Positions 10,566-26,101 of a stretch of DNA of 64,000 nt are shown here, in pieces. The notes under the pieces were generated by a model. That model saw nothing but the letters and a program-made list of their open reading frames with translations. It searched no databases and was not told the origin of the DNA. Position numbers and translations under genes: made by a program. This DNA comes from Rothia dentocariosa ATCC 17931. GTDB lineage: Bacteria; Actinomycetota; Actinomycetes; Actinomycetales; Micrococcaceae. Positions within the stretch are counted from its first letter, which is position 1; every line of letters begins with the position of its first letter. The stretch is from positions 372,001 to 436,000 of the forward strand of contig NC_014643.1 of assembly GCF_000164695.2 (NCBI RefSeq), given 5' to 3'.

Positions 10566-13500
10566 ATGGGCGAATACGACAACATGCACGTTCTAGAGCG
10601 TGATGTTGAGTTCGATTTTAATCATGCCGATATTCTGCTCAGTATATTCAGATATTTAAAAAGGAAGTTAGAAATACAGCTTCCGGAACGGCAGCGGTAT
10701 ATTGGCATAGCCCAACGTGAGTTTAAAGGACATTTCGCACGAGTTTTTGATCAGAACTGTAAATATTCCATCTCTGAATGTAAAAACCTGATTACAGCCC
10801 TGGGCGATGCCGCTACCGACCTGCAGAAGTATATTGATGCTGCACACCAAGAAAATGAGAATCGTAAAAAATTCCGTGAGGCTATGGCAAACTGGGAGGA
10901 AGAAAAACGGAAGATCAGAGATAACATTGAAAATGATAATCGAAATACATTTATAAGTTTTCAGAAAGATCCCGCTGCTCATTACCCTCCCCAACCACAG
11001 CCTAATCTAGATAACGAAGGTCCCAAGTTCGACGAACGCGCCCCGATTATCAAATCCCGTAATACGGGCAGAAATGCAGAGGTTATTGGGCGCAACCGTA
11101 CGCATCGCGCCGAAAAGAGAGCTCGGGACGCCGCCCAGGATGCTACCGAGACTACCTCGGCTATTCCCGGCAACCTCGTGACATTTGCGCAAAAGAACTC
11201 TAAGTCAGATCAAAGAATTGCTGAGCTTTACTCCAATATCACGAAAAGCTACAGCTCTTTCGCTGAGCATACATCATGGGGTGTTTTTGATGCCGTAAGC
11301 CTTTTTAACTCGATCGCAAAATGGGTTGATGCCAACCAATCTGATGTTCGTTGGATTCTCACTGTTGCGGAAGCTTTCGCGACGGCTGGTTCTCAAGGAA
11401 TGTTAGGCCCTATTTATTCTGAAGCAGATTTTTTGGATTATCCGCAGTACCTTAATACGGGGTATATCCGGAATTATCTGAAGGAACAGAAAATTTCTAC
11501 AGATCGTCCGAGTATTGACGTTTCTCGTGCGACAATAACCGGCGCGGTATACTCAGCGGGATATGCGCTTGATCCCGTAAATGTTGCCACAGGGAATTTC
11601 ATTGAGCATGAGTGTGATCTCTCCTTCGAGCATGCTCCTGCGGCATCGCTCATCAAGCTTGAACGTATGTACAACAGCGTTGCCGTTACCTATCCCGAAG
11701 AAGCCCCTTCGGGCATCTTTGGTCTCGGTTGGTCTTCTACGCTTGATACTCAACTTACGTTGAGTAACACGGGCGCTGTATGGCACACGCCTGATGGTCG
11801 GACTCTTGCATTCCCTCGTATGGGCGACGGTTTTGGTCGTGTTCCTTCCGAATCATATTGGCTTAGCAAAACTGTTCCCGGCGACGAGCTTTACAGCTAT
11901 GTTTCCACAGCGACGACAAAAGCAATCAAGACGGCAGAGAACGCTGGGCGCAAGGTCAGCGCACCTACTGCACCCGCATATTATTGGGTTGTTTACAACT
12001 CCAAGCACGTTCGATACTTCTACGATCCTTCTGGTGCCTGGACAGGCGTGATGGAGGGGCATTATGCAACCTTAACACTGCCTCTTTACTCATCGGATTC
12101 CGCAACGGGTGCGTTAGAGCTGACTGACATTGTTCACCCGGCCTCAGGTCGAGGTCTTCAGATACGCTACGGCAACTCACCCCGTTATAACCGTATTCGC
12201 CCTGAATCTGCCAGCACCTACCTTATAGATCATGATGTGCAGATACTTGATACCGTCACCTACATTTATGACGATGATGATCTGCTAGCAGCGGTTAACC
12301 GTCCCGACGGTATTCGTCGTTACACCCATAACGCTAAGCGCCTTATTGAAGAAGTGTGGGACGTGAACGGCCACCGTGAAGTCACTAATACCTATGACGG
12401 CCAAGGACGTGTGGTCCACCAGCTGACTGAACATTCCCGTGAAGTGTCTTTCGTCTATGCTCCGGGCATTATGACGATTGTTGCTGACGCGATAACCGGC
12501 GACAGCTCTAATATTTGGCGCTCGGATGAACACGGACGTCTTAGCTCTATGACGGCTGCTGATGGCAGCCGCCAAGTCATGCGCTACGATAAGTTCGGCA
12601 ACCGCATCAGCGTTACTGAACGCGATGGTTCTACGATAAGCCGTTCCTACGACTCTCACAGTCGTTTAGCGAAACAACTTACCCCCGAGGGCGCACTGTC
12701 TAAGTACACCTGGGACGAACATAACCGCCTGCTCACGACCTCTGTATGTGATTTCCGTGATCGGCTCAACCCCGGTGATCCCGTGGTAGTGTCATATACC
12801 TACGAATCAACAGGTGCAAACCCAAACCCCATCACTATGACCGATGGGAATGGGCATACTACAGAATATAGCTGGGATGAGTACGGCAACCTTCTAAGCG
12901 TTACTGACCCCACCGGTGTACGTACCACATACACCTATAACGCACGTCAAGAACTGATCAGCATAACAAACGGCGTTGGCGATACAGTCCATCTAGAGTA
13001 CGACAAACACGGTCGCATAGTGCAGGTTAGGGATGCTCTAGGTCACGTAACCTCTACTCATTGGAACTCCGCCGGGCAACTCGCCTCGGTTACGGATGCT
13101 GCCGGTTCACGCTGGTCTCTCACGTACCCTGAGCTTGCTCCCGAAGAGCTAGATGTTCCTGCTTTTGTACGCCAAAACCTTACTTCAAGCAGCACTCATT
13201 GTATACACAATACTTCGCGCCCTATGGGTCAGCTGCCCGTTTCTTTGACAGATCCTTACGGTCATGTCACACACTTTGAGTACAATAACGGCAACCAAAT
13301 CACCGCTGTCACGGATCCACTGGGTCGTACCAACCGCGCAGTATTTGATGCCTGGGGCAACATGGTCAAGACTATTAATGCCCTCGGTGCCGTAACCAAC
13401 TATGAATACGATGGCCTGTCACAACTTATTGCGGTAACAGATCCTCTGGGTGCCCGGAGTGAGTTTGACTACGACTTGGCTGGCGAAATTAGCCAGATTA

Positions 13501-16500
13501 CGGATGCTACCGGTGTTGTTACGCACCGCACTGTAGACCGTAGAACGGGCAAAGAAACTACGTCCTCCGGCGGAATACTCGGATCTTCATTCCGTCACGT
13601 CGATTATCTGGGACGGGTGATTATTGAGGGCGAGAACAATCCCCAAAATTTCACCTCTTCGCAGCCGGTTAGACGTGCATCTCAAAACTCAAAGTCACCG
13701 AGTGCATCCCCAAGAAACAGCGAAACTGTTACCGAGTTTACAGCCTATGACGCCGCAGGCAATCCCGTTGAAACTCTTGATGCTCATGGCGGACTCACCC
13801 GCCGCACCTACGATGCGGCAAACCGGCTGATACGCGAGGTATCTGCGGCGGGACGCACCCAAACATTCGACTATGATCAAGCTGGGCGTCTGCGGCGTAT
13901 AGGTGTGGGGCTAAGCGTACCCGAGCAGAAGCCGACGGTGGGCGAGAACGTGGAGTGGGAAGAGCCTACCGCTTGGGCGTACACAACGCTAACCTACGAC
14001 GCCGCATCTCGAATTATTGCCCGGACCTATCCTGACGGCACAACTGAGCATACGACGTATGATGCCCTTGGCCGGATTGTACGGGTGCAGCATGGGGCTC
14101 GCACGGCAACGTATGCATACGACCGGTGCTCACGCCTGATCCGCATGAGTGATAACAGCGCTGGTACCCGCAGATTCATCTATGATGCAGCCGGTCAGCT
14201 AGTGACTGCTGTAGATGCCTTAGGGTATCGCACCCATTTCGAGTATGACGCTGCTGGGCAGATGGTGCGCACCCTGGATGCGACCGGCCAGGTCACCACG
14301 TATATTTATGACGCCGCAGGTCAGCTTATCCGCACCATTAAGGGCGCGGGTTCTACGGCAGAGATAACATCTACATACACCTACGATGCCGCAGGTCGTC
14401 TGCTGTCTGAAAATAATGGTGAGCGAACCCGTGCATACTCCTACGACTATCAGGGTGGCGGTCTGCTCGCGTCTTTGAGCGTCAATGGTGTGTGCGCGGC
14501 GGAGTATTCGTACTCCTCCGGAACATCATCTATCGGTCATCGGACCGTGACGGTGCGTGACTACGCCTCAGCTTCTGCACTCAGGGACCGCGATTCTTCC
14601 GCCTTTGCTGGCATCGAAAAGCCGTACCTTGAGCATCGTTTTGTCTATGATTCCTCCGACCGTCTGATCTCTCGCAGCCGTTCAGGATTCCTAAGATCGG
14701 ACGATCAAAGCAACGCTCATGCAGACGATGATATACACGAGCGTCTTCACGCTTTGAATACCTTTATCAAAACCGGCGCATATACGCTGACGTACTCGTA
14801 TGATGCCGATGGTTATCTGATCACGTCAGTAACCCCTTACGCAAAATCTACACGTACCGTAGATGGCGCCGGTCGAACGGTAGCTGTAACAACACACGCC
14901 ACGGGACAGCCCGCTCACGACGTTATCTCTTCAGTATTCTCCTACGATCCTCTGGGACGTCTCACGCGGATTCGGGTGGGAGATATGGTGTCTTCCTGGA
15001 CGCACGAGCGCACTACCGGGCTAATCTCAGACTATGTGCGGGAACAGGTACTCGCCGATGTCCGAGGGTTTGAAGAATCAAAGGTTCTTGAACGCACACA
15101 AGTGATCCGTGACCATAACGGCCGCGTGATTGGGCTGGATTCAACGGGATCTGATACTTCACCGGATGGTCTTGTTCTGTACTCCTATGACTATGCCGGG
15201 CAGCTTGTGGGCGCCCGTTCAGCATCCCACGTGTGGGAGTGGGAGTACACAGCCGGAGTCATGATGCGCGAGCGCGTCTTTGCTCTCGATAGTTCTAACG
15301 GATCTGAACGCTCGGCTGCAGGCTCTCGTGTTCTGGAGGGTGAGCGTATCTTCACCCATAACGAAGCGAACCAGTTAGTCGCCGTTGAGGCTCGCGCATA
15401 CGCAGGTGCACGAGGCGGCGCTGGGGAGCTTGCCGCTCATACCATCACGGATTACTCCTACAACCTGGCAGGCGAACGTAGTGGTGAAGTCACGACCGAT
15501 AAGCTCACCGGTGCCTCATACTCTCGCGAATATAGCTGGGGTGCCTACGGCGGCCTGACATCGGTAACAGACTCTGTTTCCTCACGTGTAGGTATTTCAC
15601 GCACTTCACTGATTTCTGATGCGGTGGGTGAGGTATCCGCTGTTTCTGATGGTGAGGGCATTACAGTGCCTCTCATGTGGGATGCCAGGTCGGATATTCC
15701 GCATCTTCTGGGTGCTGGGGCAACGAGCGCACCCAGCTCTGACGGCGGCTTTTCGCAGGCGGGTATACCCGGCGGAATGATGCCTTGGCATACCCTCAAC
15801 GTCCCCGGATTGACCGGCAGCACCCTCGATTCGGCATTAGGTAGCACACCCGGACTGCCGACAGACTGGGGCGTGCCCTCTGCAAGCGCTACCCCGGTGC
15901 CCGGGATGCCCACCGGTTTCGAGTTCACGGGTGCAGGGTCGCTACGCGTAGCCGGTCTAGATATGCTAGGCGCTCGCGTCTATGACAGCCCTTCACGTCG
16001 TTTCCTCTCAACAGACCCGAAGGCCGCAATAGCTGGTTCATCCTGGTTTGCTGACGTTTACGCATATGCAGGCAATAATCCGCTGGAGTATGTGGACCCT
16101 CGGGGTGAGCGCCCCATGACGGTTGCAGATTACCGTAAGTATCAGAGCCAAGAAGGCGAACGTTTCGTGCAGCAGAGTCTGCGCTTTCTGGCTCTTGTAG
16201 GCGTTATTGGTTCGCTGTTCATAGCGCCGACAAGTATCCTCTTGGCTGGCGGTGTTGGTTTTATTTCTGGTGCCGCCAACGGTGCCGCTGATGGCATGGA
16301 TTTCCATACCCCCGACGGCAATATCGACTGGGATAAAGTGCAGGCTTACGCCCTTCAGGAAGGCGGGAAAGAAGCACTCACAGCCGCACTCATAGGGATG
16401 CTCTTCAAAGCCGGGCCACCCGTAGCACGCGCCACCGGCAACCAGGCGATGAAAGTCCCCGTTATCTCCAGAACGGTTGATCGGGTTAAGACGTCCCCTG

Positions 16501-17558
16501 TTGTCATTAAAACCCAAAACACCGTTAATGCCGTCAAGACCCGCATCAACGGAATCCAAGACCGCATTGCCACATGGACGCGCACCAGCCTGCTGGGCAT
16601 CGAGCATGTAGTGCCCAAAGTGCACCCCACGCCGCACAATAGCCCACATCAGATAGACATACCCAACGGTCCCAAACCTACCCATACCGGCTCTCTCGCT
16701 CACAGGACATCAGGAACAGTACACGAACCCAATGTGCAGCTGAAACCTGTGGAGGAACCGAAGGTTGAGAACCTGCCTCCGGCGAAAGGTGTGGCGAGTG
16801 ATTCTCCATCATTAGAGAAACCTGCTACAGATGGTAAACATGCATCTTGGGTGGAGCATCCTCCGGGTTCTAAGCTGCAAAATGGTGATCAGACGGCCAC
16901 ATATCTCGCTGGTGATGACTTCAAAAAGACTCTTGTGAAGAATACTAAGGACAGCTCTCGGTATGTACCTGCTGAAGAGCCTGGAACGTACAGCGTGTAC
17001 GGGTTTGACGAAGCTAAAAAGTTGGAGCGAGAGTATTACATTAAATTAAATGGTGGAAACTCTCCTGCTGACCTCTCTAAAGGAAAACCAGAGTTTGCCT
17101 TGTGGCGTCCTGAAGTTGGTGAGCCTAATCTAGATACGGCGATGACTAGTTTTAGGGATGTTACCCGACATGGTAATACGGTTGAGGCTCAGGTTGGTTC
17201 CCATAAATTTATGGTGACTAATCTAGATGAGTACACCGGAACAATTCCTGATGATGTAGTTCCTACGGCTAAGTCACTTTACGAGACGGGAGAGGTGCAT
17301 TGGACTGGTCGAGATTATAAACCTGAGGGTTTTGGGAATGTCCCGGATCCTCTGCCTTTTGATAATAAGGAAGCTCGTATCCTTCCCACGCATGATTACG
17401 CTGGGAATGAGATAGATTATACAAAATACAGGGTTAGGCGGTTAGCACGTACTGCAAACCAAGTAAATGACCCAGGCGCAGAACGTTTGATTGTCGGTTC
17501 TAATGGGAGTATGTATTACACTCCTGATCACTATAAGACCTTTGTACGAATTTTCTAA
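10566..17558 (+). CDS. Rhs/YD-repeat polymorphic toxin with barnase/RNase Sa-like C-terminal domain
   Basis: This is a 2330-residue toxin. In order: a helical N-terminal region without signal peptide (1-320), perhaps for specialised export; a DUF6531-type domain near 330-430 (PVNVATGNFI); many YD repeats to about 1790; the Rhs core (RVYDSPSRRFLSTDP ... YAYAGNNPLEYVDPRGE, near 1800-1848); and a variable tip with a hydrophobic stretch at about 1872-1912. The last ~90 residues resemble guanyl-specific ribonucleases: ILPTHDYAGNEIDYTKYRV, then RLIVGSNGSMYYTPDHYKTF. Against RNase Sa, His2322 and Arg2307 match His85 and Arg69, but Glu54 is Lys2287 and Arg65 is Pro2303, so activity is doubtful. The last ~750 bases are AT-rich like the immunity genes that follow. 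An immunity gene starts 8 bases after the stop. Confidence 0.9.
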   Translation: MGEYDNMHVLERDVEFDFNHADILLSIFRYLKRKLEIQLPERQRYIGIAQREFKGHFARVFDQNCKYSISECKNLITALGDAATDLQKYIDAAHQENENRKKFREAMANWEEEKRKIRDNIENDNRNTFISFQKDPAAHYPPQPQPNLDNEGPKFDERAPIIKSRNTGRNAEVIGRNRTHRAEKRARDAAQDATETTSAIPGNLVTFAQKNSKSDQRIAELYSNITKSYSSFAEHTSWGVFDAVSLFNSIAKWVDANQSDVRWILTVAEAFATAGSQGMLGPIYSEADFLDYPQYLNTGYIRNYLKEQKISTDRPSIDVSRATITGAVYSAGYALDPVNVATGNFIEHECDLSFEHAPAASLIKLERMYNSVAVTYPEEAPSGIFGLGWSSTLDTQLTLSNTGAVWHTPDGRTLAFPRMGDGFGRVPSESYWLSKTVPGDELYSYVSTATTKAIKTAENAGRKVSAPTAPAYYWVVYNSKHVRYFYDPSGAWTGVMEGHYATLTLPLYSSDSATGALELTDIVHPASGRGLQIRYGNSPRYNRIRPESASTYLIDHDVQILDTVTYIYDDDDLLAAVNRPDGIRRYTHNAKRLIEEVWDVNGHREVTNTYDGQGRVVHQLTEHSREVSFVYAPGIMTIVADAITGDSSNIWRSDEHGRLSSMTAADGSRQVMRYDKFGNRISVTERDGSTISRSYDSHSRLAKQLTPEGALSKYTWDEHNRLLTTSVCDFRDRLNPGDPVVVSYTYESTGANPNPITMTDGNGHTTEYSWDEYGNLLSVTDPTGVRTTYTYNARQELISITNGVGDTVHLEYDKHGRIVQVRDALGHVTSTHWNSAGQLASVTDAAGSRWSLTYPELAPEELDVPAFVRQNLTSSSTHCIHNTSRPMGQLPVSLTDPYGHVTHFEYNNGNQITAVTDPLGRTNRAVFDAWGNMVKTINALGAVTNYEYDGLSQLIAVTDPLGARSEFDYDLAGEISQITDATGVVTHRTVDRRTGKETTSSGGILGSSFRHVDYLGRVIIEGENNPQNFTSSQPVRRASQNSKSPSASPRNSETVTEFTAYDAAGNPVETLDAHGGLTRRTYDAANRLIREVSAAGRTQTFDYDQAGRLRRIGVGLSVPEQKPTVGENVEWEEPTAWAYTTLTYDAASRIIARTYPDGTTEHTTYDALGRIVRVQHGARTATYAYDRCSRLIRMSDNSAGTRRFIYDAAGQLVTAVDALGYRTHFEYDAAGQMVRTLDATGQVTTYIYDAAGQLIRTIKGAGSTAEITSTYTYDAAGRLLSENNGERTRAYSYDYQGGGLLASLSVNGVCAAEYSYSSGTSSIGHRTVTVRDYASASALRDRDSSAFAGIEKPYLEHRFVYDSSDRLISRSRSGFLRSDDQSNAHADDDIHERLHALNTFIKTGAYTLTYSYDADGYLITSVTPYAKSTRTVDGAGRTVAVTTHATGQPAHDVISSVFSYDPLGRLTRIRVGDMVSSWTHERTTGLISDYVREQVLADVRGFEESKVLERTQVIRDHNGRVIGLDSTGSDTSPDGLVLYSYDYAGQLVGARSASHVWEWEYTAGVMMRERVFALDSSNGSERSAAGSRVLEGERIFTHNEANQLVAVEARAYAGARGGAGELAAHTITDYSYNLAGERSGEVTTDKLTGASYSREYSWGAYGGLTSVTDSVSSRVGISRTSLISDAVGEVSAVSDGEGITVPLMWDARSDIPHLLGAGATSAPSSDGGFSQAGIPGGMMPWHTLNVPGLTGSTLDSALGSTPGLPTDWGVPSASATPVPGMPTGFEFTGAGSLRVAGLDMLGARVYDSPSRRFLSTDPKAAIAGSSWFADVYAYAGNNPLEYVDPRGERPMTVADYRKYQSQEGERFVQQSLRFLALVGVIGSLFIAPTSILLAGGVGFISGAANGAADGMDFHTPDGNIDWDKVQAYALQEGGKEALTAALIGMLFKAGPPVARATGNQAMKVPVISRTVDRVKTSPVVIKTQNTVNAVKTRINGIQDRIATWTRTSLLGIEHVVPKVHPTPHNSPHQIDIPNGPKPTHTGSLAHRTSGTVHEPNVQLKPVEEPKVENLPPAKGVASDSPSLEKPATDGKHASWVEHPPGSKLQNGDQTATYLAGDDFKKTLVKNTKDSSRYVPAEEPGTYSVYGFDEAKKLEREYYIKLNGGNSPADLSKGKPEFALWRPEVGEPNLDTAMTSFRDVTRHGNTVEAQVGSHKFMVTNLDEYTGTIPDDVVPTAKSLYETGEVHWTGRDYKPEGFGNVPDPLPFDNKEARILPTHDYAGNEIDYTKYRVRRLARTANQVNDPGAERLIVGSNGSMYYTPDHYKTFVRIF

Positions 17559-17566
17559 AGGAGATC

Positions 17567-18328
17567 ATGATGACTTACGAAAAAAAATATAAGGATGGGT
17601 TCATTGTTCCGGTGTTCACTCAGGAGAGTGGGTATTGGGAGAAAGTCATGAAGCCTCGTTTACAGGACCAGGGGTGGTATATCGCTGAAGTAGACTGTGC
17701 GAATGTAGAGGATATTGAGGATTGCGGCACAAGGCTTCTACGTGAACTCAACTTTAAAGTTCCTGAGCATGGATACATTAACGCTATGGGGGTCAAAGAT
17801 AATATCACTGACATCTACGGCATTAATATACGCAAAGGTCTCTTTGTGTTTTATAAGAATTTTGAAGACATCTTCTCTACCCATCCGGATTTGCATCAGG
17901 GGTATGGGGCTGAGTTCATGCTTCAGCTAATCGAACACATGGTATATCACTACTCCGATCTTCGTGGGTATATCTATGAAGAGTTTCCTGTAGTGGTGGG
18001 GTATGGCGTTGGTCTTCCCACCTCGTATATTCCGCAGTTTGAGGATGTGATGGGTGCAGAAAATGTGATGATTGCCGGTGAGGGCGTGCGGTATCCCTGG
18101 TCTGATTTCGAAGAAGAACAGCGCAGGAACTTTCCGAACGGAGCCCCTGATCCTCTCTACGATAAGTATGGGGAGCTTTTTGGTGTTACTACCCATAGTT
18201 CGCAGACTACGGGCATCTATGTTGCTGATCCTCGGTATTATCCTGAATCACCATTGTATGACCCTGTTCTTGCCTCCAAGGTACACCTGGTACATAGTGA
18301 ATTTACTGAGCCAGACCCTTCTATATAA
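17567..18328 (+). CDS. Barstar-like immunity protein, sub-family A (copy A1)
   Basis: This 253-residue protein starts 8 bases after the rhs stop codon, behind AAGGAG, and is the probable cognate antidote of the Rhs tip. The N-terminal ~110 residues follow a barstar-like pattern: a beta strand GWYIAEVDCANV, a helix with RLLRELNF, then GLFVFYKNFEDIF. Barstar binds barnase-type RNases and blocks their active site. An additional C-terminal half (VVVGYGVGLPTSY, YPWSDFEEEQRRNFPNGAPDPLYD) is shared by all A members. Its N-terminal half nearly equals the copy at 22949 and its C-terminal part nearly equals the copy at 23716, so it is a mosaic. The specific partner is inferred from position. Confidence 0.78.
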   Translation: MMTYEKKYKDGFIVPVFTQESGYWEKVMKPRLQDQGWYIAEVDCANVEDIEDCGTRLLRELNFKVPEHGYINAMGVKDNITDIYGINIRKGLFVFYKNFEDIFSTHPDLHQGYGAEFMLQLIEHMVYHYSDLRGYIYEEFPVVVGYGVGLPTSYIPQFEDVMGAENVMIAGEGVRYPWSDFEEEQRRNFPNGAPDPLYDKYGELFGVTTHSSQTTGIYVADPRYYPESPLYDPVLASKVHLVHSEFTEPDPSI

Positions 18329-18333
18329 ACGCT

Positions 18334-19086
18334 ATGAAGTATAAATGCGAATATAAGGATGAGTTCATTGTTCCTGTTTTCACTCGGGAGAGTGGGTATT
18401 GGGAGAAGGTGATGAAGCCTCGCCTGCAGGAACAGGGGTGGTTTATTGTTGAGGTGAATTGTGCCGGGGTAGATAGTTCGCATGAACTCGGGCGTAGGCT
18501 TTTACGAGCGCTTGGGTTTAACATTGCTCCAGATCAGTGGGTGAACGGTTTCTGGGTTATGAATGCTGTTACAGAAGCTGACTGGAATGATATGCGTCAG
18601 GGACTTTTTGTATTCTATAAGAACTTTGAGGATCTTTTTAGCGTCCAGGAAAGTTGTTCACCTTTTTATGCTCCGGAGTATGCCCTTCAACTAGCTGAAA
18701 ATATGGTTCACCATTATTCCAAATTCCGGGGAAATATTTATGAACAGTACCCTGTGGTGGTGGGGTACGGCGTTGGTCTGCCCACCTCGTATCTCCCACA
18801 GCTTGAGGATGTGATGGGTGCGGAAAATGTGATGATTGCCGGTGAGGGTGTGCGATACCCCTGGTCTGATTTCGAAGAAGAACAACGGAGGAATTTCCCG
18901 AACGGAGCCCCGGACCCTCTGTACGATAAAGACGGGATCGTCTATGGGTTTACGATTGATGATAAGGATTCTACCGGAGTCTATGTGGAAGACCCTCGGT
19001 ATTATCCTGAATCACCATTGTATGACCCGGAGCTTGCTTCGAAAGTACACCTGGTGCATAGTGAAGATGTTGATGATACAGAATAG
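18334..19086 (+). CDS. Barstar-like immunity protein, sub-family A (copy A2)
   Basis: This 250-residue paralogue begins 5 bases after the preceding gene, so it belongs to the rhs-A1-A2 transcript, which ends at a terminator at 19109. It shares the opening DEFIVPVFTRESGYWEKVMK and the C-terminal signature YPWSDFEEEQRRNFPNGAPDP with the other A copies, but the central segment (residues ~50-110) is divergent and contains WNDMRQGLFVFYKNFEDLF. Divergence in the barstar-like contact region with conserved flanks suggests protection against a different toxin variant. No clear Shine-Dalgarno is visible, so translational coupling with the gene before is likely. Confidence 0.75.
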   Translation: MKYKCEYKDEFIVPVFTRESGYWEKVMKPRLQEQGWFIVEVNCAGVDSSHELGRRLLRALGFNIAPDQWVNGFWVMNAVTEADWNDMRQGLFVFYKNFEDLFSVQESCSPFYAPEYALQLAENMVHHYSKFRGNIYEQYPVVVGYGVGLPTSYLPQLEDVMGAENVMIAGEGVRYPWSDFEEEQRRNFPNGAPDPLYDKDGIVYGFTIDDKDSTGVYVEDPRYYPESPLYDPELASKVHLVHSEDVDDTE

Positions 19087-19167: not shown

Positions 19168-19203
19168 TTCCGCATCATGATGAGACGTTTATTTTGATTA
19201 AGG

Positions 19204-19764
19204 AGTAGAAATATTATGGGTTTCTATACTGATGAGTGGGATGACGTCTTTTTCCCGGTTGTTTATGTGCGGGAGGATGGTGTTTTAGAGCGACAATTAG
19301 AGCTGTTGCGGCAGGCTGGGTGGAAGATTATTGAGCTTTCCTGTGAAAAGTTATTGGAGTCTTCGGGGTCTGCGGAAGCTTCTGTGATGGTTTTTGAGGC
19401 TATTGAGTTTCCTGAGGAGATTCCTGATATGCCAGATGATTGGATTCATGAGTATCTTGAGGATTTGCATTGGCTGGATTTGAGTCAGGGGTTCTTTTTT
19501 GCTCTGAAGAATTATGATGCACTATTCCAGAGCCCTCATGATCCTCATTATTATATGGCGAAGTGGGCTGCACAGCTGTTGCAGACTGTGGATACTGAGT
19601 TGAGGTACCGGTATTCGGAGGATGAGGATGGGGAGTATGATCCTGCGAATATTCTTTATGGTATGGAGGTGTCTCAAGAGCATCTTGATCAGGTGTTGGA
19701 GTTTTTTTGAGGGTCGGGCGATCGTGATTCCTGATTTCGATGAAAATGACCCTGGGGCTGAGTA
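19204..19764 (+). repeat. Direct duplication, copy 1 (~560 bp)
   Basis: Sequence from AGTAGAAATATTATGG at 19204 to about 19764 is almost identical to 19889-20448. The copies differ by one extra T in a homopolymer and a few substitutions. They diverge abruptly in the last ~80 bases of the genes. Confidence 0.9.
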
Positions 19765-19846
19765 TCCAGTGTATGTTAGAAATAAGGAAGATACTATTAG
19801 GAGTTGGCGAGGGATGACGGTTGACCCAGAGGATACTGAGGGTTAG
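19216..19846 (+). pseudogene. Barstar-like immunity gene, sub-family C (copy C1), frameshifted
   Basis: From the ATG at 19216 (Shine-Dalgarno AAGGAG) the frame codes for 164 residues and stops at 19710, in a run of seven T residues. The twin gene at 19901 has six T residues there and reads through. In C1 the rest of the protein (GRAIVIPDFDENDPGAEYP and a divergent tail) continues in another frame to 19846. The product resembles barstar (WKIIELSC strand, then DLHWLDLSQGFFFALKNYDALF). The frameshift removes only the last quarter, so the barstar-like core would still be made. It may be true decay, a phase-variable tract or a sequencing error. Confidence 0.72.
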
Positions 19847-19888
19847 AAGTCGTCCGCGCGCACGGAGAAATCTTCACGCCCATTGAGA

Positions 19889-20448
19889 AGTAGAAATATT
19901 ATGGTTTTTTATACTGATGAGTGGGATGACGTCTTTTTCCCGGTTATTTATGTTCGGGAGGATGGTGTTTTAGAGCGACAATTAGAGCTGTTGCGGCAGG
20001 CTGGGTGGAAGATTATTGAGCTTTCCTGTGAAAAGTTATTGGAGTCTTCGGGGTCTGCGGAAGCTTCTGTGATGGTTTTTGAGGCTATTGAGTTTCCTGA
20101 GGAGATTCCTGATATGCCAGATGATTGGATTCATGAGTATCTTGAGGATTTGCATTGGCTGGATTTGAGTCAGGGGTTCTTTTTTGCTCTGAAGAATTAT
20201 GATGCACTATTCCAGAGCCCTCATGATCCTCATTATTATATGGCGAAGTGGGCTGCACAGCTGTTGCAGACTGTGGATACTGAGTTGAGGTACCGGTATT
20301 CGGAGGATGAGGATGGGGAGTATGATCCTGCGAATATTCTTTATGGTATGGAGGTGTCTCAAGAGCATCTTGATCAGGTGTTGGAGTTTTTTGAGGGTCG
20401 GGCGATCGTGATTCCTGATTTCGATGAAAATGACCCTGGGGCGGAGCA
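19889..20448 (+). repeat. Direct duplication, copy 2 (~560 bp)
   Basis: Second copy of the block at 19204-19764, offset by 685 bases before and 684 bases after the T-tract difference. The ~45 bases separating copy 1 from copy 2 are GC-rich and unlike either side. Confidence 0.9.
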
Positions 20449-20509
20449 TCCTTTGTATGTGAAGAATAAGGATGAGGTTTTGGAGAACTGGAAATATGAG
20501 AGTAAGTAA
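19901..20509 (+). CDS. Barstar-like immunity protein, sub-family C (copy C2)
   Basis: The intact twin of the frameshifted gene before it has 202 residues from the ATG at 19901. A TTG 18 bases upstream is in frame but less likely, because the conserved block and the other C members start at ATG followed by FYTDEWDD. The protein has the barstar-like order of strand (GWKIIELSCEKLL), helix and LHWLDLSQGFFFALKNYDALF, then a C-terminal part with ANILYGMEVSQEHLDQVLEFF and an acidic end. It is probably a cytosolic antidote for a relative of the Rhs RNase tip. No cognate toxin is adjacent. Confidence 0.75.
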   Translation: MVFYTDEWDDVFFPVIYVREDGVLERQLELLRQAGWKIIELSCEKLLESSGSAEASVMVFEAIEFPEEIPDMPDDWIHEYLEDLHWLDLSQGFFFALKNYDALFQSPHDPHYYMAKWAAQLLQTVDTELRYRYSEDEDGEYDPANILYGMEVSQEHLDQVLEFFEGRAIVIPDFDENDPGAEHPLYVKNKDEVLENWKYESK

Positions 20510-20684
20510 TACCAGGGGTTCTCATTTTTGGCTCTTTAACCGGATTTTACAATATTTATTCACGTGGAGTTCTCTTCAGGTAAATTAGTGGAGATAGTCT
20601 CATATAAAAACTATTGGTTCCTGCGGTTTTGCTTTGTTGCAGGGGCCAGTGTTTTTGTGTTTTAAATTTATTAGTCGTGTTTAA
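20510..20684. other. AT-rich spacer before orphan toxin tip 1
   Basis: About 175 bases between gene C2 and the orphan toxin tip. Stop codons close all frames leading into the tip, and no rhs core sequence precedes it. I see no gene here. Confidence 0.5.
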
Positions 20685-20936
20685 GGGTTGAGCAGTTCTA
20701 AAGTTTTCGAGAATAGGCCTATGGGCAGTAAAGATGGTAGCATACTCCCAACAAAAGATAAGGATGGTAATCTTATTACATATACTGAATATGATGCAAA
20801 ACCGCCAGAGTATATCATCAAAGAAAATGGTAAACCAAGACTTAATCGGGGAACACATCGTATCGTAGTAGGAAGCAATGGAAGTATTTACTATTCGCCA
20901 GATCACTATTTAACTTTTGTCCGCCTTGTTGATTAA
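20685..20936 (+). pseudogene. Orphan Rhs toxin tip 1 (RNase Sa/barnase-like C-terminus)
   Basis: The frame from about 20685 codes for some 83 residues with no rhs core before it; a stop codon lies at 20682-20684 and only a TTG at 20688 could start it. It aligns with the last ~70 residues of the full-length Rhs protein: SILPTKDKDGNLITYTEYD, NRGTHRIVVGSNGSIYY and SPDHYLTFVRL. Unlike the full-length tip it keeps the residues matching RNase Sa Glu54 (in YTEYD), Arg65 (NRG), Arg69 and His85. It is followed after 18 bases by an immunity gene of sub-family B. This is the layout of displaced Rhs tips, silent cassettes that can be recombined onto the rhs gene. Confidence 0.72.
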
Positions 20937-20954
20937 TTTGGAAAGGAAACGAAT

Positions 20955-21629
20955 ATGCCTTATGAGGCTTTATATTCTAAACCGTTTAATATCCCTGTTT
21001 TTATACGAGATAATAATTATTGGGAAAACTATATGCTTCCTTCTCTGCGTCAGGAGGGGTGGCATGTTGTTATAGTTGATTGCGCAGGGGTTGTGGATGC
21101 CTATGATTTTGCTATTCGTTTTATGAATGCTATCAGTTTTGATTGGAGTTCATTCCCGCATAAATTTGATTTGAAATGGGCTGAAGAATATGCAGAGGAT
21201 ATCGATTGGCTTGATATGCGTCAAGGATTGTTTGTCTACTATAAAAACTTTGAAGATGTTCTATCTATGGCTGACGGTTTAAACATGGAGGGTTATGTTA
21301 GGTATAGTGTGGATATCCTTTACATTATGAATGCTTATTACCCACGGCGTCCTATGTGGCGTGATGACGAATACGAGGTTCTTTTTGGGTATGGGCTTGA
21401 GGTGTCGAAAGATTCCCTTCCTCGCGTTGAGGAGTATTTTGGAGGTCACGAAATAATCTGTGCTGGTCCTGATACTGAATACCCTTGGTCTCAACAGGAA
21501 GAGCGGAAGAAGAAATACTTCCCTAATGGTTTTCCCGATCCTCGGTATGATGAGAATGGTACGGAGTGGATTAATGATCCTGATGAGTACCCCGAGAGCA
21601 CATCCTACACTGGCAGTAAGGACTCATAG
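20955..21629 (+). CDS. Barstar-like immunity protein, sub-family B (copy B1)
   Basis: The 224-residue protein starts 18 bases after orphan tip 1, with GGAAAGGAAAC as ribosome-binding site, and is therefore its probable cognate antidote. The barstar-like part is clear: GWHVVIVDCAGVVDAYDFAI, then IDWLDMRQGLFVYYKNFEDV. The C-terminal half keeps GYGLEVSKDSLPRVEEYF and YPWSQQEERKKKYFPNGFPD, a shorter version of the sub-family A end. Codons are AT-rich and unlike the host genes. The protein is cytosolic with no signal peptide. Confidence 0.76.
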   Translation: MPYEALYSKPFNIPVFIRDNNYWENYMLPSLRQEGWHVVIVDCAGVVDAYDFAIRFMNAISFDWSSFPHKFDLKWAEEYAEDIDWLDMRQGLFVYYKNFEDVLSMADGLNMEGYVRYSVDILYIMNAYYPRRPMWRDDEYEVLFGYGLEVSKDSLPRVEEYFGGHEIICAGPDTEYPWSQQEERKKKYFPNGFPDPRYDENGTEWINDPDEYPESTSYTGSKDS

Positions 21630-21734
21630 TATCAAGGCATCTGGTGGTTAGCTAGATGACGTATATGGGTTACACCTCAGGTCGTGCTCTATATCTTTAT
21701 TTGCCTCGTGAGTTAATTTTGGGAAAGAAACAGT

Positions 21735-22434
21735 ATGCCATATCAACATAATCTTTCAAAACCCTTCATCGCCCCGATCTTCATTGAGGAAGATGGGTAT
21801 TGGCAGAATTGTATGAAGCCCTATCTTGAGCGTGAAGGGTGGTATATCGCAGAGGTTGATTGTGCTGGGGTGGTAGATGCCCGGGACTTTGGGCGTCGTC
21901 TTTTAACAGCCCTGGATTTCGACTGGGACTCTTTCTTGCATGAGTTCGATACAGAGTGGGCTTATGAATACGCTACTGCAGTCGATTGGCTTGATCTGCG
22001 TCAGGGGTTGTTTGTGTACTATAAAAAACTTTGAGGACGTTCTGTCGATGGCGGACCGTTTAGGGAACGATAGTTACGCTATTTATGCCGTGCATATGGT
22101 TGATTATATGCGTCTGGTCTATCCTATGCGTCCTAGCCCACGTCCTCGGTCTGGGGATGATTATGAGGTGACTTTAGGGTACGGGTTCGGGGTGAGTCGG
22201 GCTTCTTTGCCGCGTGTGGAGCAGTTCTTTGCAGGAAATAATGAGATTCTGATTGCTGGCCCGGAGGTGGTGGAGTATCCGTGGACTTGGCATGAGGAGC
22301 GGAAGAAAAAATATTTTCCTCAGGGGTTCCCGGCTCCTCGGTGTGATGAGAGGGGGGAGTGGATTTTTGATCCTGAAAGGTATCCGGAGAGTCCCGCGTT
22401 TACGGGTGATGCAGGATATCCTGTGGATGAATAG
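21735..22434 (+). pseudogene. Barstar-like immunity gene, sub-family B (copy B2), frameshifted
   Basis: From ATG 21735 (GGGAAAGAAAC upstream) the frame encodes 99 residues and stops at 22034, just after DLRQGLFVYYKK. The downstream part (NFEDVLSMADRLG ... YPWTWHEERKKKYFPQGFPAP) continues in another frame to 22434. The cause is a run of six A residues near 22023, where the paralogue B1 has five. Without the shift it would be a ~233-residue B protein starting YQHNLSKPFIAPIFIEEDGY. The break lies inside the barstar-like domain, so the short product is unlikely to work. It could be decay, a slippage switch or a sequence error. Confidence 0.74.
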
Positions 22435-22439
22435 TCGTC

Positions 22440-22748
22440 TTGAGGTTCAGCCTGTATCCGCATAATTCAACCGGTACTGGGTTCGAGAATCAATCTATAG
22501 ATCAGGCATGGGTGCAGGCTTATGAGTTCGATATGGTCAAGGCCGTTCAAACTTTTACAGATTGGTCGCTTGAGAATTTTATGCTGACCCTGACTGCGAG
22601 TAAAGAACCTAGCCTGCAGCAGTACCGGTTTAGTTCTTATGCTGAGTCGCGGTTGTTATCGGCTGCGTTGTGTTCGGTGATGGATTCGGTGGATAAGGCT
22701 GGTATAACCGAGATCGTGCGCTCGAGTATAACCTATTTGGCGGATTAA
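22440..22748 (+). CDS. Unrecognised small ORF within the immunity array
   Basis: The open frame from TTG 22440 gives up to 102 residues; an ATG at 22532 would give about 71. It starts 5 bases after the frameshifted B2 gene, in the manner of a coupled gene. The sequence (for example AYEFDMVKAVQTFTDWSLEN and YAESRLLSAALCSVMDSVDK) looks helical and does not resemble the barstar-like or toxin-tip sequences nearby. I do not recognise it. It may be a small immunity protein of another type or a remnant of a larger gene. Confidence 0.4.
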   Translation: MRFSLYPHNSTGTGFENQSIDQAWVQAYEFDMVKAVQTFTDWSLENFMLTLTASKEPSLQQYRFSSYAESRLLSAALCSVMDSVDKAGITEIVRSSITYLAD

Positions 22749-22948
22749 TAGTCAGAATAATGAAGTCAACTAGCTTGCCGAATAGAGTTTCTGTGTACCC
22801 TAGATGGCCCGAGGCTTATAGAAATGGGATAAACATGATAGTATTTGAGGTTGAAATTTTGGAATGTTGCTTAAGGGTTTATTCATAAGGGACTTAGGTA
22901 GGTTCTTTATGAATCCCCCTGTGTGGGATTTCTTAAGGAAATAACTAT
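22749..22948. other. AT-rich spacer before the second A-type pair
   Basis: About 200 bases with no supported gene. It contains ATTCATAA near 22882 and TTATGAAT near 22907, an 8-base inverted repeat, and ends with the ribosome-binding site AAGGAA of the next gene. A promoter for the A3-A4 pair may lie here but none is clear. Confidence 0.4.
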
Positions 22949-23710
22949 ATGGTTTATGAAAAAGAATATAAGGATGAGTTCGTTGTTCCGGTGTTCACTC
23001 GGGAGAGTGGGTATTGGGAGAAAGTGATGAAGCCTCGTTTGCAGCAGCAGGGTTGGTATATCGCTGAAGTAGACTGTGCGAATGTAGAGGATATTGAGGA
23101 TTGCGGCACAAGGCTTCTACGTGAACTCAACTTTAAGGTTCCTGAGCATGGATATATTAATGCCATGGCGGTCAAAGGAAATCTTAGGGATATCTATGGC
23201 ATTAATATGCGCAAAGGCCTCTTTGTTTTTTATAAGAATTTTGAAGATATCTTCTCTACCCATCCTGATCTATATAATGGCTATGGAGCCGAGTTTATGC
23301 TCCAACTGATTGAAGATATTGTTTATTATTATTCAACCTTACGTGGATATATCTATGAAGAGTTTCCTGTGGTGGTAGGGTATGGTGTTGGTCTTCCCAT
23401 CTCGTATATTCCGCAGCTTGAGGAGCTGATGGGTGCTGAGAACGTGATGGTTGCTGGTAAGGGTACGCGGTATCCATGGTCTGATTTCGAAGAAGAACAG
23501 CGAAGGAACTTCCCGAACGGCGCCCCGGACCCTCTATACGATAAGACAGGTCAGCTCTTTGGTGGGGTTATAAACCATGATCCGCAGGCTACGGGTATCT
23601 ATGTTGCTGATCCTCGGTATTATCCTGAATCACCATTTTATGACCCGGAGCTTGCTTCCAAGGTACACCTGGTGCATAGTGAATTTACTGAGCCAGATCC
23701 CTCTATATAA
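22949..23710 (+). CDS. Barstar-like immunity protein, sub-family A (copy A3)
   Basis: This 253-residue protein is nearly identical to copy A1 over its first ~110 residues (GWYIAEVDCANVEDIEDCG, then GLFVFYKNFEDIFSTHPDL) and again at its end (SEFTEPDPSI), but differs in the middle and late part (PISYIPQLEELMGAENVMVA, GGVINHDPQATG). It pairs with the next gene through the same 5-base gap and junction sequence seen between A1 and A2, so the A-pair was duplicated as a unit. No toxin tip stands directly before it, so the antidote is an orphan. A good ribosome-binding site (AAGGAA) precedes it. Confidence 0.76.
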   Translation: MVYEKEYKDEFVVPVFTRESGYWEKVMKPRLQQQGWYIAEVDCANVEDIEDCGTRLLRELNFKVPEHGYINAMAVKGNLRDIYGINMRKGLFVFYKNFEDIFSTHPDLYNGYGAEFMLQLIEDIVYYYSTLRGYIYEEFPVVVGYGVGLPISYIPQLEELMGAENVMVAGKGTRYPWSDFEEEQRRNFPNGAPDPLYDKTGQLFGGVINHDPQATGIYVADPRYYPESPFYDPELASKVHLVHSEFTEPDPSI

Positions 23711-23715
23711 ACGCT

Positions 23716-24465
23716 ATGGGGTATAAATACGACTACAAGGATGAGTTCATTGTTCCGGTGTTCACTCAGGAGAGCGGGTACTGGGAGAAAATCATGAAGC
23801 CTCGTTTACAGCAGCAGAGGTGGTATATCGCTGAAGTAGACTGTGTTGGTGTGGAAGATATAGTAGATTTTGGCAGGAGGCTTCTACGGGCACTTAATTT
23901 TAGCGTTGGTGATAACGAATATATCAGTCCGATATGGTATGAAAATCTTGTCGGGGAAATATCTGGAGTATCTATGCGGCAAGGTTTTTTTATCTACTAT
24001 AAAAACTTTGGAGACTTTTTATCTATGCATCATGATGCAGATCCAGAGTCTTCAGCAATATATGCGATCAAGCTTCTTGAAAATATGAGCTATCACTACT
24101 CCGATCTTCGTGGGTATATTTACGAGCAGTATCCTGTGGTGGTGGGGTATGGCGTTGGTCTTCCCACCTCGTATATTCCACAGTTTGAGGAGCTGATGGG
24201 TGCGGAAAATGTGATGATTGCCGGTGAGGGTGTGCGATACCCCTGGTCCGATTTTGAGGAAGAACAGCGCAGAAACTTCCCGAATGGTGCCCCGGACCCT
24301 CTGTACGATAAGTATGGGGAGCTTTTTGGTGTTACTACCCATAGTTCGCAGACTACGGGTATCTATGTTGATGATCCTCGATATTATCCTGAATCACCAT
24401 TGTATGACCCTGTTCTTGCCTCGAAAGTGCACCTGGTGCATAGCGAGTTTGACGATCCCGAATAA
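23716..24465 (+). CDS. Barstar-like immunity protein, sub-family A (copy A4)
   Basis: The 249-residue fourth A member follows A3 after 5 bases. Its central barstar-like segment is distinct (ISGVSMRQGFFIYYKNFGDFL), whereas its C-terminal ~110 residues nearly match A1, including DKYGELFGVTTHSSQTTGIY, which is absent from A3. A1 thus combines an A3-like front with an A4-like back. The gene lacks a clear Shine-Dalgarno and is probably translated by coupling with A3. It ends 22 bases before a hairpin terminator. Confidence 0.76.
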   Translation: MGYKYDYKDEFIVPVFTQESGYWEKIMKPRLQQQRWYIAEVDCVGVEDIVDFGRRLLRALNFSVGDNEYISPIWYENLVGEISGVSMRQGFFIYYKNFGDFLSMHHDADPESSAIYAIKLLENMSYHYSDLRGYIYEQYPVVVGYGVGLPTSYIPQFEELMGAENVMIAGEGVRYPWSDFEEEQRRNFPNGAPDPLYDKYGELFGVTTHSSQTTGIYVDDPRYYPESPLYDPVLASKVHLVHSEFDDPE

Positions 24466-24559: not shown

Positions 24560-24793
24560 GAAAGTTACGGAGGCTGTTCTGCCGCAACTGCTGTTGAGGG
24601 GAATCCTATTACGTATACGGAAATGGATTTCATGGCGCCTCAACCGAAGATTGGTGAAAACGGTAGAGTTGAGTTGAAGCCTAACGGGAAGCCTGAGACG
24701 ACTCGTGGTGATGACCGGTTGATAGTGGGTAGTAATGGCAGTATCTATTACAGCCCGGATCATTATCACACGTTTATCCTATTAGCAGAGTAA
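24560..24793 (+). pseudogene. Orphan Rhs toxin tip 2 (RNase Sa/barnase-like C-terminus)
   Basis: The frame is open from 24560 to the stop at 24793, about 77 residues, with no good start codon and no rhs core upstream. It matches the end of the Rhs toxin: NPITYTEMDFMAPQPK, TTRGDDRLIVGSNGSIYY and SPDHYHTF. The residues matching RNase Sa Glu54 (YTEMD), Arg65 (TRG), Arg69 (DRL) and His85 (DHY) are all present. The segment equivalent to the ILPT strand of other tips is missing, so this copy is shorter at the front than tip 1. A B-type immunity gene follows after 14 bases. Confidence 0.7.
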
Positions 24794-24807: not shown

Positions 24808-25458
24808 ATGGCTTACAAGCAGGTACGGTCTGCTGAGGGATTCATTGCCCCTTTGTTTATCCGTGAAGATGGGTACTGGGAGAACCATATGCTGCCTTAT
24901 CTGGAAGCGGAGGGGTGGAAGGTTATTGTTGTTGACTGTGCCGGGGTAGAAACCACACTAGATTTTGCGTACCGTCTGGTTGCGAGTATTGAGAGTGTCT
25001 ATGCTATTCCGGATGATTTTAACCTGCGTTGGGCTTCGGAAGATGCCTGCCTGATTAACTGGTTTGATATGCGCCAGGGGCTGTTTGTGTTGTACAAGAA
25101 TTTTGATGATCTCTTCGTGATGGATGACGAGGACGTGAGCTTATGCGTAAATATTCTGGAAGAAATGGAAGTATATTACGCCACTCGCCAATTACACGGC
25201 AGCGGTCTGTATGAAGTTTTGGTTGGGTATGGGTTTGATATTTCACGGGAAAGCTTGCCGCGGGTGAAAGAGTTTTTCAACGATAGCATCGTGATTGCTG
25301 CTGACGGGGCCAAGTATCCTTGGTCACGGGTGGAAAGGTTTAAGAAACTGTTTTTCCCGAATGGTTTTCCGGATCCTCTTTATGAAGATGGAGATGACTG
25401 GATTAATGATCCTGATGAGTGCTCCGAGAGCACATCCTACACCGGCGGGAACAGCTAA
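24808..25458 (+). CDS. Barstar-like immunity protein, sub-family B (copy B3)
   Basis: This 216-residue protein starts 14 bases after orphan tip 2, with AAGGGAG as ribosome-binding site, and is probably its antidote. It has the B pattern: GWKVIVVDCAGVETTLDFAY, NWFDMRQGLFVLYKNFDDLF, then GYGFDISRESLPRVKEFF and an end with FPNGFPDPLYED. It is intact, unlike B2. Both orphan tips are followed by B-type genes, whereas the tip on the full-length rhs gene is followed by A-type genes. This supports pairing by sub-family. Confidence 0.76.
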   Translation: MAYKQVRSAEGFIAPLFIREDGYWENHMLPYLEAEGWKVIVVDCAGVETTLDFAYRLVASIESVYAIPDDFNLRWASEDACLINWFDMRQGLFVLYKNFDDLFVMDDEDVSLCVNILEEMEVYYATRQLHGSGLYEVLVGYGFDISRESLPRVKEFFNDSIVIAADGAKYPWSRVERFKKLFFPNGFPDPLYEDGDDWINDPDECSESTSYTGGNS

Positions 25459-25489: not shown

Positions 25490-26101
25490 ATGGGTTTCTA
25501 CAAAAACGAATCAGATGATACATTCTTCCCTGCTATCTACATCACCGAAGACAAGGTGCTAGAGCGCCAAACTCAAGCCCTGCGCGATCAAGGCTGGGCC
25601 GTCATCGAAATCCACTGCAAAAACATACTAGCTTCCCAGGACCCGCAAGCAGGAGCCCTCGAAATCATCCGAGCCGTCAACCTCCCGCACAAACTCCCCG
25701 ATGATAATTACATGACCTGGACCCAAGAAATCATCTCAGACCTCGACTGGCTCGATCTAAGCAAAGGAGTCTTCGTCATCCTCAAAGACTACGATGTACT
25801 CTTCACCCCCTGGAACAGTCCCGACCACTCTGAAGCAAAATGGATGGCACGACACCTACAAACCGTGGACGATAACCTGCGGTACCGGCATAGCCAATTT
25901 GCTTATGGTGATTATGACCCACCATATGTGCTTTATGGTATGGAGGTGTCTCAGGAAAAACTCGACACTGTGCTGGAATTCTTCGAAGGTCGAGCCACTA
26001 TTATCGAAGACTTCGATAAAGACAACCCAGGCGCAGAATACCCACCCCTGGTGGAGTATCGCCATAAAGTCGTTAGGAGCTGGCAGCACAAAAATAATTA
26101 G
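25490..26101 (+). CDS. Barstar-like immunity protein, sub-family C (copy C3)
   Basis: The last array gene encodes 203 residues, with AAGGAG before the ATG. It follows the C pattern: GWAVIEIHCKNIL, SDLDWLDLSKGVFVILKDYDVLF, then VLYGMEVSQEKLDTVLEFFEG. The first two thirds use C-ending, host-like codons, unlike the AT-rich C1 and C2. Around 25890-25960 the codons switch to the T-ending style, and a stretch near 25929-25952 (CTTTATGGTATGGAGG and on) equals C1/C2 at the DNA level. This looks like a gene-conversion patch. It has no adjacent toxin tip. Confidence 0.75.
   Translation: MGFYKNESDDTFFPAIYITEDKVLERQTQALRDQGWAVIEIHCKNILASQDPQAGALEIIRAVNLPHKLPDDNYMTWTQEIISDLDWLDLSKGVFVILKDYDVLFTPWNSPDHSEAKWMARHLQTVDDNLRYRHSQFAYGDYDPPYVLYGMEVSQEKLDTVLEFFEGRATIIEDFDKDNPGAEYPPLVEYRHKVVRSWQHKNN

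Follow-up and report, generated by a model that had tools for sequence, protein, structure and literature searches.

Is the toxin at the end of a Rhs protein of Rothia dentocariosa ATCC 17931 a ribonuclease that has died, or a form of the enzyme that is kept without its catalytic glutamate? The question is raised by a stretch of 64,000 nucleotides of the genome of this strain (NC_014643.1, positions 372,001 to 436,000), here called the window, which encodes a full-length Rhs protein with a C-terminal toxin tip of the barnase/RNase Sa type. A preliminary description of the window proposed that this tip had lost two catalytic residues which two orphan tips downstream had kept, that it might be a decaying allele or else use different chemistry, and that in the case of an inactive tip the intact nuclease information would be stored in silent cassettes. 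Here, a lysine (Lys2287) was found very probably to occupy the position of the catalytic glutamate, in the window tip as in many of its homologues, and the tips that carry it are probably not decaying.

The Rhs protein has YD repeats, a Rhs core, a variable C-terminal module and an adjoining immunity-type gene, as expected of a Rhs polymorphic toxin. When three homologues were compared with a fourth, identity was 88-100 per 100 columns before column 2101, 80-88 per 100 in the two blocks from that column, and 23-26 of the last 31. The last 99 residues constitute the barnase/RNase Sa-type domain, as first described: the tip alone scored 28.8 bits with PF00545 (curated cut-off 24), and its predicted model has the barnase/RNase Sa fold (PDB 1ay7, 1py3, 1a2p, 1gou). 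Catalytic positions were read from a profile built from 131 Glu-bearing relatives, to which 216 of the 217 short relatives were aligned (P0206 excepted). This alignment gave K, P, R and H for the window tip and E, R, R and H for both orphan tips and for a second full-length Rhs protein of the genome, in agreement with the residues originally assigned by eye. The lysine site is, we take it, equivalent to Glu54 of RNase Sa and Glu73 of barnase, and the more direct argument for this register is that Glu stands at the very same residue in some of the full-length homologues that share this tip. The second arginine and the catalytic histidine are present, and a guanine-loop motif, F-x-N, precedes LP. 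Since the catalytic Glu is absent, the tip is placed in the PF00545 sequence and fold family only and is not termed a canonical ribonuclease.

Table 1. Positions of the Rhs gene, its tip and the neighbouring genes in the window (aa, amino acids; bp, base pairs; dN/dS, ratio of nonsynonymous to synonymous substitution rates; L008, locus of the second Rhs protein).
Feature	Position	Strand	Remarks
Rhs protein	10566..17558	+	2330 aa; YD repeats, Rhs-associated core, C-terminal toxin tip; NCBIfam TIGR01643, TIGR03696
Junction before the variable C-terminal module	16734..16789	+	56 bp, 96% identical to L008:8190-8244 in the second Rhs
Barnase/RNase Sa-type tip domain	17256..17555	+	PF00545; profile match residues 2260-2329
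Asp2284	17415..17417	+	3 residues N-terminal of Lys2287
Lys2287	17424..17426	+	Catalytic-Glu position
Pro2303	17472..17474	+	First-Arg position (Arg65/Arg83)
Arg2307	17484..17486	+	Second-Arg position (Arg69/Arg87)
His2322	17529..17531	+	Catalytic-His position (His85/His102)
First immunity gene	17567..18328	+	253 aa; starts 8 bp past the Rhs stop; role from position
Second immunity gene	18334..19086	+	250 aa; same group, 66% identical to first
Orphan tip 1	20688..20936	+	82-aa open frame; Glu and Arg present; N-terminal part of domain missing
Immunity gene following orphan tip 1	20955..21629	+	
Paralogue of first immunity gene	22949..23710	+	87% identical; dN/dS 0.14
Further paralogue of first immunity gene	23716..24465	+	74% identical
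Orphan tip 2	24581..24790	+	Glu and Arg present; frame opens past a stop and has no Met ahead of the tip; without ILPT and upstream part
Immunity gene following orphan tip 2	24808..25458	+	

The lysine is rare in the wider family. Glutamate was found in 92 of the 94 distinct PF00545 cores surveyed, the exceptions being the window tip and the core of L105 (Leu). The survey (loci L009-L113) comprised phylum, order and class searches, the three loci of a contig scan and 15 extra stretches; it covers matches with loci in hand rather than every match listed, counts repeated cores once, and includes the contig-scan loci as well as L084, the tip of the window itself. One of its searches leans towards the window tip and Glu-less rows, as both are part of the alignment used there (A4). 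The core of L105 reads YYRLFEV and has a gap at the first Arg. The Glu column is filled in 187 short relatives, by Glu (n = 174), Lys (n = 8), Ala (n = 2), Asp (n = 1) or Cys (n = 1), besides one alignment slip: P0228, which reads YREWDV but shows an apparent Val, was excluded from the tree and the residue statistics. Four of the Lys rows (P0130, P0132, P0234 and P0237) belong to the Rothia clade and four (P0176, P0194, P0205 and P0250) lie outside it, P0194 combining Lys with Pro. A tree of 188 rows and 66 columns, with 100 of 184 inner branches unresolved, required four changes for Lys, eight for Glu versus not-Glu and five for Arg, which implies that Lys arose about three further times. No report of a Lys-bearing barnase toxin was found in the literature searched, a set that mostly excludes subscription papers.

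Among full-length homologues with this tip (180 found, 120 listed as cluster representatives), Lys was present at position 2287 in 72 of those listed and Glu in 48, a ratio that is not an allele frequency because each entry represents a cluster whose other tips are unread and some Glu-type clusters are large (P0107, for example, has 491 members). Arg2307 and His2322, correctly described as retained in the window, were invariant in all 120, including the 72 Lys rows. By this comparison a single tip is polymorphic for Glu and Lys, and Lys occurs in two subclades, Pro-type and Ala-type, which differ at many tip sites. A genus-wide search with the tip matched the window's own genome only (1 of 35), and a search of genome contigs yielded three loci, one from Caballeronia and two from one Myxococcales metagenome-assembled genome.

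The replacement of the first arginine, which had been counted as a second catalytic loss, has to be judged differently from that of the glutamate. Position 2303 was occupied by Pro (n = 44), Ala (n = 33) or Val (n = 43) and never by Arg in the listed homologues, and Arg was missing in 41 of the 166 Glu-bearing rows outside this clade. Since all 48 Glu-type homologues and these 41 rows do without it, its absence is, on the alignments, neither a sign of inactivity nor a second loss, whereas the loss of Glu stands as real and unusual. The clade has an Arg-rich segment, VRRLxR, with a mean of 4.2 Lys/Arg, whereas 129 rows that have the Arg average 2.0 and 45 further rows that lack it average 1.0. 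In this clade the segment may stand in for the missing Arg.

Variation within the Lys-type tips was then set against conservation in the family. The 12 distinct tips of this type vary at 17 of 65 core columns, of which one falls among the 21 most conserved columns (P = 0.005) and five among the 32 of the conserved half (P = 0.052); for the eight distinct Glu-type tips the corresponding numbers were three (P = 0.08) and four (P = 0.007). The column pattern points to maintenance but is no evidence of catalysis, as keeping of the fold alone could yield the same.

The explanation towards which we lean, at slightly better than even confidence, is that the tip is a maintained Glu-less barnase variant in which RNA cleavage is altered or weakened. 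The Rhs tip would be delivered to a neighbouring cell and meet RNA there with a barnase fold, while barstar-like immunity proteins, presumably paired with the tip and encoded by the genes that directly follow it, would protect the producer. RNA would still be cleaved, though by a site that is altered or weakened. Arg2307 and His2322 would perform the phosphate and acid work, Lys2287 would contribute positive charge together with the Arg-rich stretch that precedes Pro2303, and the requirement for a base would be relaxed or met by a different acidic residue, for which Asp2284 is the leading candidate. Against the background of barnase, a textbook enzyme, a natural and common allele without the general base is apparently maintained here beside Glu-bearing sisters. 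The sister alleles allow a direct test of the need for Glu in a delivered toxin, and they also bear on tuning of potency or of immunity specificity via the active site.

Several observations weigh against such a variant. The near universality of Glu in the surveyed cores indicates that it matters, and in the enzymology of barnase and RNase T1 its removal costs much activity. The usual strand register would turn a side chain at position -3 from Lys2287 away from the active site. Conservation of the columns is no proof of catalysis, since they are structural as well, and one Lys-type variant, P0044, has LS for LP, a change in a highly conserved column. The maintenance case for the tip is made on protein columns, the dN/dS estimate being from immunity genes. 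PF00545 appears in the precomputed Pfam column for all 43 Glu/Val-type homologues and for none of the 77 others listed, Lys types included, which places the Lys tips at the edge of the profile. P0239, a Glu/Ala-type tip whose upstream part has residues characteristic of Lys/Ala-type tips, shows recombination within the domain, so the divergence of the Lys clade need not all postdate the lysine. The other Arg-less lineages manage without extra basic residues, and the comparison at position -3 given below was framed after the Rothia tips had been seen and involves few and related rows. The accessible parts of the literature (PMC11408511 among them) gave no usable residual-activity figures for Glu-less barnase, RNase T1 or RNase Sa.

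The chief alternative, which we regard as unlikely though well short of negligible, is a pseudo-enzyme: the fold would be kept without useful nuclease activity, as a harmless allele at high frequency. Binding of RNA or of the immunity protein might preserve it, or selection might act on the Rhs shaft and the immunity genes instead. The absence of a general base that nearly all other cores keep is what such a protein would display, and catalytically inactive domains have been described in polymorphic toxins and derived proteins, as far as the accessible part of that study goes (Zhang et al. 2012, PMC3482391). It fits less well that His2322 and Arg2307 are unaltered in every Lys row listed and that purifying selection keeps several members of the immunity group, although these may protect from Glu-type tips that other strains carry.

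A bolder and distinctly less probable version of the Glu-less variant is that the base has moved three residues upstream, to Asp or Glu at position 2284, with the lysine at the old site and charge from the Arg-rich segment; the arrangement would have arisen several times and, in Rothia, be kept as a polymorphism alongside the classical Glu form, perhaps tuned to different barstar-like immunity proteins. Residue 2284 is Asp or Glu in 12 of 12 distinct Lys-type tips and Ala or Lys in eight of eight distinct Glu-type tips. Outside Rothia, an acid at -3 was found in three of eight Glu-less rows (P0243, P0250 and P0225) and in four of 166 Glu-bearing rows (Fisher P = 0.002), as well as in one of the 92 Glu-bearing surveyed cores; P0250 is the only one of the four Lys rows outside Rothia to have it. 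The apparent over-representation of the acid where Glu is lost is a lead only. If true, barnase-family toxins can escape a near-obligatory Glu.

That the tip is a decaying or neutral allele, a chance replacement not yet removed from a locus with frequent toxin swaps, is improbable. The eight tree changes between Glu and not-Glu indicate that loss recurs, and the locus contains debris in the form of truncated orphans and an immunity gene split over two frames. Decay is nevertheless disfavoured, contrary to the earlier suggestion, because Lys occurs in 72 of the 120 listed homologues and in both subclades, Arg2307 and His2322 are kept, and variation lies mostly outside the family-conserved columns; the frames are also full-length. 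Least probable of all is an artefact of register in which Asp2284, through a strand shift, is the true Glu54 equivalent and the site in effect canonical: phmmer, and phmmer alone, places Asp2284 beneath the Glu of RNase Sa, and an acid at -3 is commoner in Glu-less relatives, but the profile alignment keeps Lys2287 in place, equal-length sister tips have Glu at 2287 with Ala or Lys at 2284, and a shift of three residues flips the strand face unless a bulge is present.

Storage of an intact nuclease in silent cassettes found no support in the window. Of the 98 positions of PF00545, orphan tip 1 covers 44-96 and orphan tip 2 covers 53-96. At the DNA level, the former matches the displayed tip over 47 bp (74% identity) and the latter over 63 bp (76%). 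The long homology between displayed and orphan copies expected of a cassette donor was thus not found. The 56-bp junction was not found beside either orphan, and elsewhere in the window and in L008 nothing beyond 10-base words was detected. In Salmonella, where a full-length Rhs is likewise followed by orphan tips with immunity genes, a switch between main and orphan rhs used 522 bp at 95% identity, according to the accessible part of Koskiniemi et al. 2014 (PMC3967940). The window orphans are more readily seen as remnants than as a stock from which this tip could be replaced. The second full-length Rhs protein (2490 aa, L008:1530-9002) bears a displayed tip of the orphan-2 type, with Glu and Arg, and the strain therefore encodes both the Lys and the Glu kind in full length. 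A Lys-type tip is also found on a short open reading frame (ORF), P0130 (207 aa, on a 2.51-Mb contig), so that Lys, too, occurs in the cassette form. Two more orphan tips lie in the second locus (L008:11498-11752 and L008:13138-13287), one with YTEMD and TRGTER (Glu, Arg) and the other without the Glu segment; the longest match of a second-locus orphan to the displayed tip was 67 bp at 76%. A 3.9-kb block with orphan tip 1 and several immunity genes (19170-23079) is 99.3% identical to L008:13970-17896, and was copied recently between the two Rhs loci, which are about 1.2 Mb apart.

The immunity group headed by the first gene is under purifying selection. In its predicted model, the first immunity protein appears to contain a barstar-like fold; the top rows of the structure search with this model were AAA+ chains, matches that we read as a shared parallel sheet. 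PF01337 (barstar) gave no match at E 10 in the six immunity-type proteins scanned.

Among known systems, Tox-Barnase/Imm-Barstar is closest, as presented in the accessible part of Zhang et al. (PMC3482391): a barnase-type domain at the C-terminus of Rhs, immunity of an apparently barstar-like kind directly downstream and an immunity array are shared. The present tip differs by Lys for Glu and Pro for the first Arg, and the immunity proteins by their size (about 215-255 aa), the barstar-like part apparently forming only the core, and by the lack of a PF01337 match. With RNase Sa, Sa2, barnase and binase the tip shares the fold, the second Arg, the His, F-x-N before LP and the DHYxTF strand, but it lacks Glu and the first Arg and has a longer, Arg-rich segment between these positions. 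The BECR-fold toxins (RelE, colicin D/E5, contact-dependent inhibition toxins, Ntox50 YxiD) have the same broad fold with Lys, Arg or His where barnase has Glu, judging by the accessible parts of PMC9086364, PMC12700104 and PMC3482391. They are other families, whereas here a barnase site is changed in part, and the likeness is one of principle, not of membership. Rothia toxin-immunity pairs also include RdnE of R. dentocariosa C6B, a PD-(D/E)XK DNA nuclease (PMC12483513), and the R. mucilaginosa rhs genes (PMC3667864), and this tip is not treated in the accessible part of the latter report.

Promoter and terminator scans gave signals no higher than in shuffles. The split immunity gene lies at 21735-22434 in two overlapping frames, and its copy at L008:16553-17251 is a single 232-aa frame. 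Another immunity-like gene is present as a tandem pair (19197-20475), with 97.5% identity between the copies over 595 bp; the frame of the first copy stops sooner. Twelve ORFs (P0172, P0174, P0175, P0178-P0180, P0183-P0186, P0188 and P0193) encode an immunity-type protein, resembling the product of the gene at 25490-26101, fused to a Lys/Pro-like tip end; the join is at DNPGAE/DNPDAE, which is like NDPGAE of the tip, and these fusions are apparent deletions at short similarity.
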